Virus record (IMG/VR): IMGVR_UViG_3300025828_000150
Coordinates: 1 to 27,357 of that record
Reading direction: 5' to 3' (one strand)
Length of the DNA stretch: 27,357 nt
Origin: a virus
Both the position numbers and the translations under genes were made by a program. How positions within the stretch are numbered: the first letter of the stretch is position 1; every line of letters starts with the position of its first letter. Shown in pieces: positions 5,662 through 25,911 of this stretch. The notes beneath the pieces are model-generated. The model made no database searches and was not told the origin of the DNA. It saw only the letters and a program-made list of their open reading frames with translations.

Positions 5662-5962
5662 GAATAGACACCAGCGAATTTGACAAGTTAATGAAAGAAC
5701 TAGAAAAAGTTCCCAGTGAAAGTGTCAAACAAGCAGGTGGTTATTTTAAAGGCATTACTCCTAAAAGAACAGGTAATGCTCGTAACAAAACAGTAACAAA
5801 TACAAAACAGTAACAAATGAAAGAAAGAGTAGGATAGAAGCCAATTATCCATATGCAGGTAGGCTGGATGAGGGCTACAGTAAACAAGCACCAAAAGGTA
5901 TGAGTGATCCTACAATTGATTATTTAGAAAACATAATCAATGATAAGGTTGGGAGACTATAG
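5658..5962 (+). pseudogene. HK97 gp10-like tail completion protein, frame broken by 17-bp duplication
   Basis: As written, the frame from ATG 5658 stops at 5813 after 51 codons, just inside the second copy of a 17-bp tandem repeat. Removing one copy joins it to a second frame ending at 5962 and yields a continuous protein of about 95 aa. The repaired sequence contains TPKRTGNARNKTV, then IEANYPYAGRLDEGYSKQAP and KGMSDPTI, the hallmark run of HK97 gp10 / tail completion proteins. That close fit across the joint argues that the intact gene is real and the extra copy is not functional. Start overlaps the chaperone stop; the repaired stop overlaps the tape measure GTG. Confidence 0.75.
5785..5818 (+). 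repeat. 17-bp exact tandem duplication
   Basis: ACAAAACAGTAACAAAT occurs at 5785-5801 and again at 5802-5818. The unit is not a multiple of three and breaks the gp10-like frame. Deleting one copy restores it. Confidence 0.97.
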
Positions 5963-7266
5963 TGGCTAAAAGTATAAAGGTTGTACTAGAGCTAGACGAT
6001 CGTAAATTTAAACAGGGCATGAAGAATGCCGATAGCTCTGTAAATAAATTTGAACAAAGTTCTAAAAGTGCTGGACTAGGTATTGGCTCGTTAGCGGCAG
6101 GCTTAGCCGCCGCAGGCACAGCCGCATTGGGTTTAGCAAGTGCTGTTAACGCCGCTAGAAGTGTTGAAGACTTAGGTATCACATTAGAAACACTGTATGG
6201 TGATGCTGAACAAGCCGCATTGGCATTGGAAATGGTCAAGAATGAAGCGGCCAGATTGCCTATTGCACTAAACGATATACAAAGTGGTGTACCAGCATTA
6301 GCACTTGTAGAAGAAAAGATGGGTGGCTTGGACAAAGCAATCCAGTTCACAGCAGGTGTAGCAAGTTCATTTGGCATGAGCTTCCAAGAAGCCGCAACCA
6401 ACGTTCAGCGTTCATTAAGTGCTGGTATTGGTGCCGCTGACTTATTCAGAGACAAAGGTGTTAAAGCATTCTTAGGATTCCAAGAAGGTGCTGAATACAC
6501 TGCTGAACAAACAGAGGAAATGTTCTTAGCGGCATTTGACAAAGTAACAGCCGCAAACGAAAAAGCCGCAGAGTCAATGACTGGACAAATGAGTATGGTA
6601 GGTGATGCTGTATTCCAAGTTCAAGAAGCACTGGGTGCCGCATTTAGTGAAAGCCTCAAAGAAGTACTCAAAGATTTCAACGCCGCATTCGCAGAAAACA
6701 AAGACAGAATATTAGAAGTAGCAAGTGCAATTGGTAGTGCATTGGGTGATGCATTGTCATTCTTAGTGGATAATATGAATATTATTATTCCTTTAATTAC
6801 AGCATTTGCCGCAGGATGGGCCGCAATCAAATTTGTTGCTATTGCACAAGGTATAATGGCAGTTAGAACAGCAGTGTTGGCAATGAACACTGCAATACTG
6901 GCAAATCCAATTGGTGCAGTGGCAGCCGCTATTGCCGCAGCCGCAGTTCTTATTATTACATATTGGGATGACATCAAAGCCGCAGGCGTTAGTGCATATC
7001 AAAACATTGAATTAGGTTGGACCAAGTTGTCATTATGGTTCTTGGAAGTGTTATCACCTATACTTAGTGGTATCAGAGACATGTTCCTTTCAATTGGGGA
7101 CACAGCACAAGCAACATGGGCAGGTATCAAAGCCGCCGCAACTGATGTGCTTAATCCTGTTGAAGCATTTAACGCCGCATTTGACGAAACCACGCCGCAT
7201 TTGACGAAACCATACTGGCATTGCAAGAAGGCAGAGGTGAAAGTGAAGTATTTGGCGGTAAAATAG
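5962..7266 (+). CDS. Tail tape measure protein, N-terminal part
   Basis: First part of the tape measure, which fixes tail length and is ejected with the DNA. GTG start at 5962 overlapping the previous stop. Residues 1-30 are charged. A Gly/Ala-rich hydrophobic segment follows (about 38-65), then a helical region typical of the family (SVEDLGITLETLYGDAEQAA; FQEAATNVQRSLSAGIGAAD). A long membrane-like stretch at about 272-335 has several hydrophobic helices (NIIIPLITAFAAGW ... AAVLIITYWDDIKAAG). True homology ends near residue 410: the second copy of a 20-bp duplication shifts the frame and the last 18 or so residues are spurious. Removing one copy joins this frame to the downstream part, giving one gene 5962-8687 of about 901 aa. 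Confidence 0.88.
   Translation: MAKSIKVVLELDDRKFKQGMKNADSSVNKFEQSSKSAGLGIGSLAAGLAAAGTAALGLASAVNAARSVEDLGITLETLYGDAEQAALALEMVKNEAARLPIALNDIQSGVPALALVEEKMGGLDKAIQFTAGVASSFGMSFQEAATNVQRSLSAGIGAADLFRDKGVKAFLGFQEGAEYTAEQTEEMFLAAFDKVTAANEKAAESMTGQMSMVGDAVFQVQEALGAAFSESLKEVLKDFNAAFAENKDRILEVASAIGSALGDALSFLVDNMNIIIPLITAFAAGWAAIKFVAIAQGIMAVRTAVLAMNTAILANPIGAVAAAIAAAAVLIITYWDDIKAAGVSAYQNIELGWTKLSLWFLEVLSPILSGIRDMFLSIGDTAQATWAGIKAAATDVLNPVEAFNAAFDETTPHLTKPYWHCKKAEVKVKYLAVK
7172..7211 (+). repeat. 20-bp exact tandem duplication in tape measure gene
   Basis: ACGCCGCATTTGACGAAACC is present at 7172-7191 and 7192-7211. The 20-base insertion shifts the frame. With one copy removed the N- and C-terminal tape measure frames fuse as NAAFDETILALQEGRGE. 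Confidence 0.97.
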
Positions 7267-8687
7267 AAGAATTAAAAGGTAAAATTGCTGATCTCGAAAC
7301 ACAAATGGAGAGTAGCACTGAAACAACCACTGATAACACAGAATCTACACTGGCCAATGCTGAAGCAACAGATGAATTGGCAGACAGCACTGCAAATTTA
7401 GCAGAAGAAACCGCTGGTGCTGTTGATCAATGGACACAATTGGCAGAACGTGAAGAAGAAGCCACCGAACAAATCAAAGCAGTAACAGATGCTTATGCAG
7501 ATTACATTGATGAATTACGTGAAGATGTAAGACTTGCTGGTCTTAGCAACGAAGAACGTGAATTACAAATTGAATTAGCCAAAGCATACGAGGCTGCCGC
7601 AAAAGAATTAGGTATTACTGTGCATGAACTCAGTGATACAACCAAAGAAAAGATTGAAGCAGAGATAGAAGCATTAATTGAAAGTCGCAGAACCAAAGAA
7701 GAAGAAACAGAGAACTTTGTTAAAGGCGAACAAGACAAGCAAAAAGAATTAGATAGAACATTAGAACGTATTGAAAACAACATGGCGGCACAAAAAGAAT
7801 TAGATAGAACATTAGAACGTATTGAAAACAACATGGCGGCACTAGAAGCGGCCAGTATAAATGCTGTTGAACGCATGCAAATGGAACATGAATACATGCG
7901 TAAAACAATTGGCTTATATGGTGAAGAGCGAGAAGTTGCTGAAGCATTGCATGAGTATGATGTCAAGGTTCATGAACTTGAAACCAAGATGGAAAATGAC
8001 ATACAGAAATTGCGTGAAGATGGGCACATCAAAGAAGCAGAAATGATGCAGGCTGAACTAGAACAGTTCCGTGAAAGCAATGAAGCAAGAAGAGAAGAAA
8101 TAGCCAAAACAGCACAAGCAACTGCAGAATATCAACGTTCATTTGAATATGGTTGGAAAGAAGCATATGGCAATTGGATGGATGATGCCGCAAACGCCGC
8201 TAAATTTGGTGGACAAGTGTTTACCACATTTGCAAATGGCATGACTGATGCAATAGTGGACTTTGCAATGACTGGTAAATTGTCATTTAAAGATTTGCTT
8301 GATAACATGAAACGTGTGATTGTCAGATTCTTAGCAGAAGCCGCTGTTAAACAGTTCTTAAAATTCTTAATGGGTAAATTCAGCAGTGGTGCATTGGGTG
8401 GTATATTCTCAGGTATCAGCAAAATATTTGGATTTGCTGATGGTGGTTACATACCTGGTAACAAAATGGCCATTGTGGGTGAAGAAGGACCTGAGCTGTT
8501 TATGCCAGCCAGCAGTGGAACCATTATACCTAACTTTGCCGCAGGTGGCATGATGGGTGGTGGCACTACTCAAATAACATATAACATTTCAGCAGTAGAT
8601 TCACAGAGCTTCAAGAATCTAGTGGCAAGAGATCCTGAATTCATATATAACGTAACTGAAGCAGGGCGTAGGAGGGTTCCACAATAA
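7221..8687 (+). CDS. Tail tape measure protein, C-terminal part
   Basis: Continuation of the tape measure. The ATG at 7221 is probably an internal Met rather than a start. The region is long, charged and coiled-coil (KIEELKGKIADLETQM; EREEEATEQIKAVTDAY; a MENDIQKLREDGHI stretch). It contains an exact in-frame 17-residue tandem repeat (QKELDRTLERIENNMAA twice). The C-terminus has the characteristic lambda-like end: a FKDLLDNMKRVIVRFLAEA helix, a Gly-rich segment, then FADGGYIPGNKMAIVGEEGPE and LFMPASSGTIIPN, seen in many tape measure proteins. The TAA stop overlaps the next gene's ATG. Full protein length of about 885-901 aa predicts a tail of roughly 130 nm using the usual 0.15 nm per residue (inference). 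Confidence 0.9.
   Translation: MQEGRGESEVFGGKIEELKGKIADLETQMESSTETTTDNTESTLANAEATDELADSTANLAEETAGAVDQWTQLAEREEEATEQIKAVTDAYADYIDELREDVRLAGLSNEERELQIELAKAYEAAAKELGITVHELSDTTKEKIEAEIEALIESRRTKEEETENFVKGEQDKQKELDRTLERIENNMAAQKELDRTLERIENNMAALEAASINAVERMQMEHEYMRKTIGLYGEEREVAEALHEYDVKVHELETKMENDIQKLREDGHIKEAEMMQAELEQFRESNEARREEIAKTAQATAEYQRSFEYGWKEAYGNWMDDAANAAKFGGQVFTTFANGMTDAIVDFAMTGKLSFKDLLDNMKRVIVRFLAEAAVKQFLKFLMGKFSSGALGGIFSGISKIFGFADGGYIPGNKMAIVGEEGPELFMPASSGTIIPNFAAGGMMGGGTTQITYNISAVDSQSFKNLVARDPEFIYNVTEAGRRRVPQ
7740..7841 (+). repeat. 51-bp exact tandem duplication, in frame
   Basis: Two identical 51-base copies (7740-7790 and 7791-7841) encode QKELDRTLERIENNMAA twice. This is the only duplication of the seven that keeps the frame. 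DNA identity is complete, including third codon positions, so it is recent or artefactual rather than an old protein repeat. Confidence 0.96.
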
Positions 8688-21469: not shown

Positions 21470-21811
21470 ATGGCAAACAGAAAAAAGCAAAGCAACCTAC
21501 AACGACTATTATATTACATAATAAGAGCCACAAAAACAAGTTCTGGCTGTTGGGAATACATGCCCAAAAAATATTCTGATTATATACATTTCAAAACCAG
21601 AGGTTGTGAATACTTTACAACCAACAGCACAATGCTACATCGCTTCATTTATGCTGTTTATAATGATACCCACTTAACACCAGAAAATGTTATAATGCAC
21701 ACCTGTGATAACAGAATATGCATAAATCCCAAACATTTGGTGTTAGGAACCATTCAAACCAACAACGCCATGCGAGTCAGACGTCAAAAAGCCCGAAAAA
21801 GAACCAAATAA
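21470..21811 (+). CDS. HNH endonuclease
   Basis: 113 aa. The C-terminal half has the HNH_3-type core: MLHRFIYAVYNDTHLTPENV, then HTCDNRICINPKHLVLGT, followed by a conserved Asn in IQTNNAMR. The CxNPxHLxxGT and the preceding HTCDN are the metal- and DNA-binding residues expected. The N-terminus (TSSGCWEYMPKK) resembles the usual GCWxW entry of this family. Such enzymes nick or cut DNA, either as homing endonucleases or as helpers of packaging. It is free-standing, has no good ribosome site and follows a hairpin. It has a basic tail, RVRRQKARKRTK. Family assignment is sure, biological role is not. Confidence 0.88.
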   Translation: MANRKKQSNLQRLLYYIIRATKTSSGCWEYMPKKYSDYIHFKTRGCEYFTTNSTMLHRFIYAVYNDTHLTPENVIMHTCDNRICINPKHLVLGTIQTNNAMRVRRQKARKRTK

Positions 21812-21865: not shown

Positions 21866-22291
21866 ATGATTAAAGGCACTAGAACAGTGAATGGTAAAAC
21901 ACCATTCGAACAAAAATGGGGCATTTCAGCAAATGAATTAGCACAGCAAGAAGGTGTAGGTACACCTGCTATACACATGCGAGTTAATTTATATGGAACA
22001 CCCTTTCAACGCAAAGCAAAACCCACAAACATAGAACGCAAGTATGGTGCTACCATATTTGAATTGGGCAAACAACTGAATTTACATCCTATCAGTGTTG
22101 TACAACGTGAGCTATGGTTTGGTGATGTTTACAGAGAAAGTGATAGACCATCACACAACAGAGGTAAATCACTAAAACCAGAAGAAGAAAAGAAGTGGCG
22201 TAAACACTACAAAGATGTATTTTGGTTGCATGAAAATCATCCTGATTATGACCGTGCAAGAGCAGGCAATTGGGGAGAAGATGATGCATAG
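21866..22291 (+). CDS. Putative DNA-binding protein with two similar HTH-like units
   Basis: 141 aa, strong ribosome site (AAAAGGAGG). Two tandem related units are visible: EQKWGISANELAQQEGVGTP followed by AIHMRVNLYGTPF, and ERKYGATIFELGKQLNLHPI followed by SVVQRELWFGDVY. Shared pattern: (E/x)xK(W/Y)G-x(3-4)-EL-xxQ, a turn, then a recognition-helix-like (A/S)(I/V)xxR-x-x-(L/W)(Y/F)G. Each unit is the size of a helix-turn-helix, so it may bind DNA. The C-terminus is charged (KPEEEKKWRKHYKDVFWLHE) and acidic at the end. Role unknown: regulator of late genes or packaging helper are possibilities. Confidence 0.55.
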   Translation: MIKGTRTVNGKTPFEQKWGISANELAQQEGVGTPAIHMRVNLYGTPFQRKAKPTNIERKYGATIFELGKQLNLHPISVVQRELWFGDVYRESDRPSHNRGKSLKPEEEKKWRKHYKDVFWLHENHPDYDRARAGNWGEDDA

Positions 22292-22757
22292 CACTCTGTT
22301 ACCAGAAAGAACTTATGACAACATAGCAGAACAATACACTGTACACTATATTGTTAAGCCTGGCAATGCTAAAAAACATGTGGTTATGCGTGATGAAGAT
22401 TTAAGTTACATATATCATTGGCTAAACAGAATGTTAGCAGATTGCGCCAGCAAGCAAAACATTGAGCCTGATATTTTTCAAATGGCCACACGTTTTACTA
22501 AAAAATTACCAAAGAGTGGCTTGGAAAAAACAGGTAACAGTCTGTTCAGTTATATAGGTGGATTGTGTAGCAATAGATATAGAAATCCCAATCAAGACTT
22601 TACACAAGGTCAATTGAACACCATAGAATTCTGTTTTGATGCAATATATTTTGCATATGGAGAAAATGGTGAATTTGATGAAAAGGATTTGGGTTATGAT
22701 ATAAAAACAGGTGTACCAAATGAACCACCACAACGTATAACTTTTGTAGAGGTATAA
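22284..22757 (+). CDS. Unknown protein (157 aa)
   Basis: Not recognised. Start chosen at ATG 22284, six bases after GGGGAG; the frame is open further upstream but without a ribosome site. It overlaps the previous stop by eight bases. Mixed alpha/beta: EQYTVHYIVKPGNAKKHVVM, then a helix (DEDLSYIYHWLNRMLADCAS), a helix (DIFQMATRFTKKLPKSGLEK) and an acidic C-terminus. It contains the run NQDFTQGQLNTIEFCFDAIY. No motif or membrane segment. It is the last gene before a strong terminator. Confidence 0.65.
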   Translation: MHSTLLPERTYDNIAEQYTVHYIVKPGNAKKHVVMRDEDLSYIYHWLNRMLADCASKQNIEPDIFQMATRFTKKLPKSGLEKTGNSLFSYIGGLCSNRYRNPNQDFTQGQLNTIEFCFDAIYFAYGENGEFDEKDLGYDIKTGVPNEPPQRITFVEV

Positions 22758-22759
22758 AA

Positions 22760-22783
22760 AAACCCCCTATTGCTAGGGGGTTT
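22760..22783 (+). terminator. Rho-independent terminator closing the late block
   Basis: AAACCCCCTA pairs perfectly with TAGGGGGTTT around a TTGC loop, immediately after the stop at 22757. Poly-A on the 5' side and TTT on the 3' side make it usable in both directions. It separates the morphogenesis-linked cluster from the downstream structured region. Confidence 0.88.
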
Positions 22784-22814
22784 AACCGGGTTTCAATAAT
22801 TTGGCACAATTATT

Positions 22815-22994
22815 TGAAATGTAATTACATAAGAGAAATCTTATGAAATGTAGTTAGGAACAAAGTGAATAAATCGGAGGCCATTCGTCATTATTCGGAT
22901 CGATAACTTATGATTAGGAACACCTTTGTCTGGCAACAATTAGTTCATATAAGGGGAACTAGGTGTTTTAATGAAGAAAATGTTCCTAACTACA
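22815..22994 (+). ncRNA. Structured non-coding region with 14-bp terminal inverted repeat (candidate RNA or regulatory/origin element)
   Basis: No ORF of note occupies 22784-23110. In it: a 12-bp palindrome ATGTAATTACAT (22819-22830); a 7-bp hairpin CATAAGA-GAAA-TCTTATG with a GNRA tetraloop (22828-22845); a direct repeat TGAAATGTA(A/G)TTA (22815-22827 and 22844-22856); a perfect 14-bp inverted repeat TGTAGTTAGGAACA / TGTTCCTAACTACA (22849-22862 and 22981-22994). Inside it: GAATAA/TTATTC (22867-22872, 22891-22896), AACACCT/AGGTGTT (22919-22925, 22961-22967), TTGT/ACAA (22926-22929, 22936-22939) and TAGTTC/GAACTA (22941-22946, 22956-22961). All these stems are compatible with a multi-branched RNA, apart from one shared base at 22961. 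It could instead be an origin or operator array. Confidence 0.5.
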
Positions 22995-23018
22995 AATAAT
23001 ATTTATCAATTTTGGCAA

Positions 23019-23046
23019 TTGACATACACAAAATTGGATATATAAT
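23019..23046 (+). promoter_or_regulatory. Consensus sigma70 promoter
   Basis: TTGACA (23019-23024), 16-base spacer, TATAAT (23041-23046). Both hexamers match the consensus exactly. It lies just after the 14-bp inverted repeat and directs transcription towards the unknown operon 23111-24496. Expected start is at or near G at 23052-23053. It is the only promoter of this quality in the window and probably acts early, using host RNA polymerase. Confidence 0.88.
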
Positions 23047-23110: not shown

Positions 23111-23815
23111 ATGAAAGACCAAAAAAATTTAACCAGTGATGCTAATCACTATAATACTATTAACAATAAAATAAGTAATAATGAACAAGTAATAAGTAAC
23201 AAACAACAACTAATATATAGATTTGCATCTGACACATCAGATGACAAAAGATCTACAAATAAGTTAAATGAGTCCGTTGACTCGACTTCGTCGAAAGATT
23301 ATTCGTTCATAACTGAAAAATATTGTGTAGCGGCGCAGAATTTACTCCGCAAAGATATTTTTTCTGTTTCATTCTCAGTACTGGGCAAAAAGTCAGATCA
23401 CCGCCGCAGTATGAACATAGACGTGATATTTGAACCCGGTGATAGACCATACAAATACAAAGTTGATATGGTTGGCAGTCGCTATGCATATGAAATCACA
23501 AACCGTATACGTGATGAAGAACGCAAATGGCCAATGTGGGATATGGTAATTGGTGCTGTAAAGCATGAAGGTCACATGTGGGGTAAATTACGCAACAGAA
23601 CAAAAAACACAAAGATTGTGCCACGTCAGCGAATTAACTATTGTGTTGCAGGCTTAGATTCTGATGCTGTAGCACATCTAATATTAGGTAATAACACAAA
23701 AATCAGTTGTCAATTAGAAGACGTAAAGGACATTGACCTGCGTAAATTGTTTATAGCCAAAGGCACTTGGATTAATCCGGAATGGGATGAAGGAGATTAT
23801 GATGTCAAATTGTAA
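23111..23815 (+). CDS. Unknown protein (234 aa), first gene of sigma70-driven operon
   Basis: Not recognised. Start chosen at ATG 23111 after GGAGAAAAA; the frame is open to 23012 but only from a TTG inside the promoter. The first 60 residues are low-complexity and Asn/Ser-rich (NHYNTINNKISNNEQVISNK), then a linker SVDSTSSKDYS. The core is compact alpha/beta: VSFSVLGKKSDHRRSMNIDV, FEPGDRPYKYKVDMVGSRYA, RIRDEERKWPMWDMVIGAVK, HEGHMWGKLRNRTKNTKIV. His and Trp are frequent, but no known catalytic motif was seen. The 5' end DNA is much more AT-rich than the rest of the gene, suggesting an added N-terminal segment. The stop overlaps the next gene. Confidence 0.65.
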   Translation: MKDQKNLTSDANHYNTINNKISNNEQVISNKQQLIYRFASDTSDDKRSTNKLNESVDSTSSKDYSFITEKYCVAAQNLLRKDIFSVSFSVLGKKSDHRRSMNIDVIFEPGDRPYKYKVDMVGSRYAYEITNRIRDEERKWPMWDMVIGAVKHEGHMWGKLRNRTKNTKIVPRQRINYCVAGLDSDAVAHLILGNNTKISCQLEDVKDIDLRKLFIAKGTWINPEWDEGDYDVKL

Positions 23816-24984: not shown

Positions 24985-25911
24985 ATGAAGTTAACAGAAC
25001 CCCAAAAGGATATACTGAACAATCCTGCACGATTTAAAGTTGTAGCAAGTGGTAGACGTTTTGGTAAAACATACGCCAGCATAGCCGCATTGGCAAAACA
25101 CAGTCGATATCCCAATTCAAAATGCATGTACATTGCACCCAGTTATCGTATGGCCAAACAGATTGTGTGGGAAGATCTCAAGTTAATGCTGAAACAAAGA
25201 CGTTGGGCAAAACGCATAAATGAAAGTGAATTAACCATCACATTGGTAAACAACAGCCAAATAATGTTGCGTAGTGCTGACAATCCTGATTCAATACGTG
25301 GTGTTGGTTTAGACTTTGTGGTTATAGATGAAGCCGCAGACATTGACAACAGTGGTGAAGCATGGGGTGCAGTTATACGTCCCACGTTATCCGATCGTGA
25401 AGGACATGCTCTCATTATAGGATCACCCAAAGGACGTAATTGGTTTTATGACTTATATCAAAATGCCAAACACTATGAAGATTGGCACAGTTGGCAATAC
25501 ACCACAGCAGAAGGTGGCAATGTAAGTGAAGCAGAAATAAATCAAGCAAAGCAAGACCTAGATGAAAGAACATTTCAACAAGAATACCTAGCACAATTTG
25601 TTAATTACTCAGGCGTTATATATTATGCATTTGGTGAACACAATATTAAAAGTATGCCACAACCAGCAGACTTGCGAACACCACTACACATAGGCATGGA
25701 CTTCAACATTGATCCAGGTTGTGCTGTTATTGGATATCAACACAGAGAAGGCATACACATATTCGATGAACTGGAAATATATGGCACTGACACCGGTGAA
25801 ATATGGACTTCAACATTGATCCAGGTTGTGCTGTTATTGGATATCAACACAGAGAAGGCATACACATATTCGATGAACTGGAAATATATGGCACTGACAC
25901 CGGTGAAATGA
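24985..25911 (+). CDS. Terminase large subunit, ATPase and start of nuclease
   Basis: Packaging motor and nuclease. Walker A is SGRRFGKT (residues 22-29), Walker B FVVIDEA (about 111-117, DE at 115-116), motif III-like IIGSPKG near 144-150, and the nuclease begins with GMDFNIDPG, where Asp239 is the first metal ligand. The frame as given then runs into the second copy of a 107-bp duplication, so the final 30 or so residues (from IWTSTLIQVVLLLDIN) are spurious. The first ORF is 308 aa. With one copy removed the gene spans 24985-26336, 414 aa, an ordinary length for a large terminase of this type. Confidence 0.9.
   Translation: MKLTEPQKDILNNPARFKVVASGRRFGKTYASIAALAKHSRYPNSKCMYIAPSYRMAKQIVWEDLKLMLKQRRWAKRINESELTITLVNNSQIMLRSADNPDSIRGVGLDFVVIDEAADIDNSGEAWGAVIRPTLSDREGHALIIGSPKGRNWFYDLYQNAKHYEDWHSWQYTTAEGGNVSEAEINQAKQDLDERTFQQEYLAQFVNYSGVIYYAFGEHNIKSMPQPADLRTPLHIGMDFNIDPGCAVIGYQHREGIHIFDELEIYGTDTGEIWTSTLIQVVLLLDINTEKAYTYSMNWKYMALTPVK
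25696..25909 (+). repeat. 107-bp exact tandem duplication in large terminase gene
   Basis: Copies at 25696-25802 and 25803-25909 are identical (start ATGGACTTCAACATTG). 107 is not divisible by three, so the terminase frame breaks. It is the longest of the seven tandem copies. Confidence 0.98.

Follow-up and report, generated by a model that had tools for sequence, protein, structure and literature searches.

A predicted family of structured RNAs tied to a promoter-like box in uncultured marine tailed phages

Is the compact inverted repeat described here a DNA site or an RNA, which strand would carry it, and what might it do? It lies in a virus record of 27,357 bases (the window, the whole stretch of DNA that was analysed), in the intergenic space bounded by the end of a + strand gene (22757) and by a gene that starts after 23046. 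A portal, a major head protein and a terminase large subunit were recognised among the window genes, and by TerL comparison the nearest phages with names are for the most part Pelagibacter phages, 47–49% identical. The initial annotation had marked positions 22815–22994 as a structured element and, implicitly reading the + strand, had offered a phage small RNA, an origin of replication, an operator array or a packaging site as its identity.

Other features of the window were recorded alongside. An HNH endonuclease-like gene (21470–21808) lies upstream of the element, and several relatives have the same. The terminase large subunit gene holds an exact 107-nt tandem duplication (25696–25909) that breaks its frame and is probably an assembly artefact; in the close relative L082 this gene is intact (415 aa). 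An exact 51-nt tandem duplication (7740–7841) falls in the tape-measure region, where the gene frame is split between ORFs 5962–7266 and 7221–8687. No tRNA or tmRNA was found.

The element in the window and its strand

The 14-bp closing inverted repeat named in the initial annotation proved perfect, pairing 22849–22862 with 22981–22994, and the predicted fold of the 180 bases has an energy of −45.3 kcal/mol, with shuffled sequences at −30.3 ± 3.8 (z −4.0, 0 of 200 as good), which bears out the view that the structure is beyond expectation. The direct repeat was recovered as well (20 nt, 80% alike), while the supposed 12-bp palindrome came back as 11-nt arms that are 91% complementary and not in the exact 12-bp form. 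The GNRA-capped hairpin exists as CATAAGA-GAAA-TCTTATG at 22828–22845, but its GNRA loop is present on the + strand only, probably the untranscribed strand. The element does lie between a terminator (stem 22760–22783) and a consensus promoter (23019–23046), but the terminator has its T-run on the minus strand. This was the first hint of a leftward-read RNA. The + strand reading was wrong, with the RNA on the minus strand, and the proposed bounds had cut off the end of the unit, which extends from a box at 23007–23000 to the T-run at about 22753. The minus-strand stretch 22754–22999 folds at z = −5.5. The features of the locus are as follows.

23019–23046, + strand: sigma-70-like promoter TTGACA-16-TATAAT, 12/12 match
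23000–23007, minus strand: promoter-like box GATAAATA, 5 nt before the closing stem; the sole GATAAATA in the window
22753–22995, minus strand: small RNA transcript as predicted, running from about 22995 to about 22753; relatives have the same order of box, closing stem, core and terminator
22981–22994, minus strand: closing stem P1, 5' strand (TGTAGTTAGGAACA); perfect 14-bp pairing, P1 covarying across relatives
22919–22967, minus strand: inner arm between AACACCT and AGGTGTT; centroid fold, window only
22926–22939, minus strand: small hairpin TTGT-TGCCAG-ACAA, exposing a GUUGCCA-type loop; motif also in relatives' loops
22891–22896, minus strand: stem P2, 5' strand (GAATAA); register common to relatives
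22874–22889, minus strand: conserved core loop GACGAATGGCCTCCGA; 2 mismatches to the consensus GACGATTGGTCTCCGA
22867–22872, minus strand: stem P2, 3' strand (TTATTC); register common to relatives
22849–22862, minus strand: closing stem P1, 3' strand (TGTTCCTAACTACA); perfect 14-bp pairing, P1 covarying across relatives
22828–22845, minus strand: hairpin CATAAGA/TCTTATG between P1 and the tail; the GNRA hairpin of the initial annotation, from the other strand
22791–22819, minus strand: tail hairpin exposing GUGCCA; similar tail motif in related RNAs of the same type
22753–22783, minus strand: intrinsic terminator AAACCCCCTA-GCAA-TAGGGGGTTT plus TTTT; stem 22760–22783

The + strand promoter is divergent, serves the gene at 23111–23815 and is a neighbour outside the RNA. 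The genes at 21866–22291 and 22215–22757, which often adjoin the RNA in relatives, have no match in Pfam or PHROG. By eye, the first resembles a double helix-turn-helix protein, and its product could be a candidate regulator of the ATAAATA box.

Relatives and covariation of the closing stem

The core loop (22889–22874) led to relatives in uncultured marine phages. Loci encoding related TerLs share the motif TCGGAGACCAATCGTC, and a scan of the viral collection for this motif returned 23 stretches. Written in the opposite sense, members run from ATAAATA through 3–5 nt, a stem strand, an insert, GACGATTGGTCTCCGA and a further insert to the complementary strand. Of 18 readable core copies, 17 have the ATAAATA box followed after 3–5 nt by a closing stem, about 10 bp long, in which the letters vary yet remain paired. 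L015, with a core outside its long stem, and L089, truncated at the contig end, depart from this pattern; in L038 the box reads ATAAGTA and the core is one base shorter. The 17 aligned members agree throughout the box and at most positions of the core. Because dozens of related ocean phage contigs keep the box, the closing stem and the loop letters, the element is very probably real. A second set of loci, fetched by TerL, yielded essentially no new members, and no similar DNA was found among the named phages searched. The element is also absent from the Rfam families and bacterial genomes searched, and the family looks confined to one clade. The exact 16-nt core does occur in 31 bacterial contigs, but these matches are due to chance, with ATAAATA within 120 nt upstream in none of them.

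MAFFT misaligned the 3' stem strands, and covariation was counted on composite rows (stem, core, stem) cut at fixed distances. In 15 such rows, 99.3% of the P1 cells are paired, a percentage favoured by anchoring the rows on pairing, and 8 of the 10 base pairs show two-sided changes; these are the compensatory changes in viral homologues that the initial annotation had named as one check on its proposal. P2 keeps its register and has two-sided changes at all 6 pairs, with just 63% of its cells paired. For the structure as a whole, covariation scores 0.767, compared with 0.246 ± 0.030 for shuffled and at most 0.20 for slid versions; the rows are related and anchored on pairing, and the shuffle count is not to be read as a probability. 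The P1 cells include eight G-U and no A-C pairs, which points to an RNA of that strand. A covariance model built from compact members finds relatives that had been left out of it (L096, E 4e-8; L099, 6e-5; L097, 1e-4; L103, 0.004). On the window, whose 91-nt insert lies outside the model, it gives 13.7 bits (E = 0.18) at the best place in the window, which falls short of significance, and some of the bacterial chance matches to the exact core reach 12–20 bits. Taken together, comparison of these loci shows a structured element tied to a promoter-like box and under selection for pairing.

The assignment of the window to this family draws on box, stem, core, P2 register and terminator taken together. 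Its ATAAATA box (23000–23007) stands 5 nt before a 14-bp closing stem, within the 3–5 nt and at least 9 bp looked for; its core matches the consensus at 14 of 16 letters (with up to three mismatches allowed, chance would give 0.01 matches); the six P2 pairs are in register with relatives; and a minus-strand terminator follows at 22783–22753. We consider it highly probable that the window RNA is a member of the ATAAATA-stem family, of which it is a divergent example, and scarcely less so that a minus-strand RNA gene is present.

Inverted repeats also form in DNA, and an intergenic position would suit an origin, operator, packaging site or cruciform. A DNA element, however, would explain neither the G-U pairs without A-C in P1 nor a fixed box at one end with terminators or gene starts at the other, and a chance structure is excluded by the shuffles and control offsets; this pair of readings is very improbable. 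The origin, operator array and packaging site first suggested are unsupported: copies lie behind an ATAAATA box, often before a terminator or gene start, and the P1 pairs point to RNA. Several copies per genome, at different places and in both orientations, also argue against a fixed single genomic site such as an origin or packaging site. The phage small RNA, also among the suggestions and undescribed so far, has good support from the relatives, the compensatory changes, the promoter-like box, the terminators and the lack of an Rfam match.

Promoter-like box, leaders and two loop types

When loci were searched for nothing more than the box with a stem of 9 bp or longer 2–6 nt behind it, 35 distinct elements turned up, against 1–2 at control offsets; this locus set includes members fetched by the core. 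In a locus set drawn through a neighbouring protein, with a looser cut-off of 8 bp, there were 48 against 6–13 at controls. Upstream of the 35 elements ATAAATA is nearly invariant, with a preceding G in 30 and a C 30 nt upstream in 25. The box, [G]ATAAATA, is nearly the same as the −10 box of T4-type late promoters (TATAAATA; NATAAATA in cyanomyoviruses) and likewise sits just before the presumed start, whereas the small siphovirus-like genome and the conserved C 30 nt upstream of the box set it apart.

An intrinsic terminator lies within 259 nt behind 16 of 38 elements, compared with 11% of random stretches; behind other elements, a gene starts 13–18 nt after P1. Some genes behind ATAAATA boxes have AAGGCAAC leaders replacing the AGGAG usual in these genomes. 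GGCAAC was seen 7 times against 2.2 expected, and AAGGAG 61 times against 2.0. One reading of these positions is that the element forms the 5'-terminal stem of phage-specific promoter transcripts, blocking 5'-end-dependent decay or tuning translation in cis, with the stand-alone copies as attenuated or degenerate leaders. It accords with the start of P1 3–5 nt past the box in almost all members and with the gene starts directly behind some, but would leave unexplained both the conserved loop letters and stand-alone units with terminators, such as that of the window, and we consider it somewhat unlikely. Alternatively, a leader RNA might bind a protein or small ligand through its conserved core, in a riboswitch-like or autoregulatory manner. 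The nearly invariant 16-nt core inside a variable stem and the leader positions ahead of small genes would suit this proposal, which is nonetheless quite unlikely given that no Rfam riboswitch matches, that the downstream genes differ and that stand-alone versions have no gene behind them.

Many of the elements belong to one of two types with complementary loops, UGGC/UUGGUC in the first and GUUGCCA in the second. Two close elements, one per loop type, are found in L026, L028, L032, L035, L039, L085 and L090, while both types occur in one RNA in the window, L009, L019, L045, L294, L297 and L321. In L035 the first loop reads UAGC and the second GCUA, a single event that is no more than suggestive of loop pairing. 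The pairing would amount to 4–5 bp only, this being its one paired change, and many members are without a recognisable partner loop; matches in a pattern scan for the GUUGCCA type were mostly due to chance. Eight RNAs of the first type, including that of the window, whose copy has an indel, carry a tail motif around GUGCCA 29–39 nt after P1 (control 4%). GGCAAC is complementary to the GUUGCC loop, making the AAGGCAAC leaders candidate targets.

Further elements were seen in the same loci. L039 has a third small box-plus-stem element (3544, + strand) whose loop, AGGCAAC, contains the complement of the GUUGCC loop in the RNA beside it. Another box-plus-stem set (L273:7278, L276:7136, L287:7519 and L286:7195, + strand) has the stem GCTGGGTTAGG/CCTAACTCAGC or nearly so and a different inner design, and three of these elements hold AAAGGAGGAAAC. 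A second conserved region of about 450 nt, found by BLAST in many relatives and not in the window, lies upstream of terminase genes without an obvious coding gene (L010:1545–1985, L011:1667–2107, L013:4400–4856, L096:3097–3522, also L020, L022, L015 and others). It has no Rfam match and 82 predicted consensus pairs, 15 of them with two-sided changes (four sequences), and is probably a large structured RNA.

Candidate roles and known systems

The existence of the RNA and its strand are well supported; its function we infer. The best explanation overall, and a reasonably probable one, is a phage riboregulatory small RNA made from a dedicated promoter and working via loop pairing. Transcription would run leftward from the ATAAATA-box promoter, starting at the closing stem near 22995 and ending at the terminator near 22753, and the closing stem probably protects the 5' end. 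The exposed UGGC/UUGGUC, GUUGCCA and GUGCCA loops would pair mutually, either between tandem RNAs or, as in the window, within or between copies; further partners may be the unusual AAGGCAAC leaders found on phage genes under this box. Regulation by loop pairing is a tentative proposal, somewhat short of an even chance. A small RNA–RNA network, in which UGGC-loop and GCCA-loop RNAs (fused in the window's phage) kiss, also pair with AAGGCAAC leaders and control the whole promoter class, would be an unlikely extension.

The phi29 pRNA has stem-closed ends, a junction and short complementary loops. A structural RNA of DNA packaging of this kind, forming an oligomer via 4-nt loop–loop pairing, would match the closed junction RNA with complementary 4-nt loops described here, where the complementarity is seen in sequence alone, and terminase genes usually lie within a few kilobases. 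The phage type and terminase differ, however: a phi29-type motor belongs to a protein-primed small podovirus, whereas the terminase here is of the Terminase_6N/6C type and the portal is that of a tailed phage. There is no Rfam match, the copies that act as 5' leaders of mRNAs do not fit, and the related phages HTVC111P and DSL-LC06 (TerL about 48% identical) are without such an element, leaving a packaging RNA highly improbable.

As the initial annotation had held, no known RNA family fits: with Rfam 15, neither the window nor the relatives gave a score above the gathering threshold. The best sub-threshold matches were Phe_leader at 31 bits (cut-off 55), over the hairpin of the terminator in the window, and NsiR1 at 32 bits (cut-off 39), elsewhere in L009. 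A group I intron was rejected for want of an Rfam match, and a retron likewise, with no reverse transcriptase recognised on inspection of neighbouring ORFs. No description of the element was found in the literature searched. Phage antisense and sponge small RNAs offer a further likeness, with a short stand-alone transcript (here predicted) that ends in a terminator and exposes loops with complements in other RNAs of the phage; the regular 5'-closing stem and the tandem or fused organisation are different, and the targets here are candidates.

Structured RNAs of phage and marine origin, such as manA, wcaG and the c4 antisense RNA, were found by comparative genomics (PMC2864571). Ours resembles them as a structured RNA detected by covariation in phage and marine sequence, and differs in having no Rfam match, a closing stem fixed to a promoter-like box and paired loop types. 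As a phage structured RNA its kind is known, while the family is new. Comparison of the relatives shows an undescribed family of predicted RNAs in uncultured marine tailed phages; its members share conserved loops and a closing stem that covaries and forms the 5' terminus. This would add a structured RNA family to what is described for these phages. Its design is unusual, with a promoter box locked to the RNA closing stem and two complementary loops held in one RNA or split over two. It provides testable pairs for RNA–RNA recognition and a promoter motif for predicting expression in unculturable phages.
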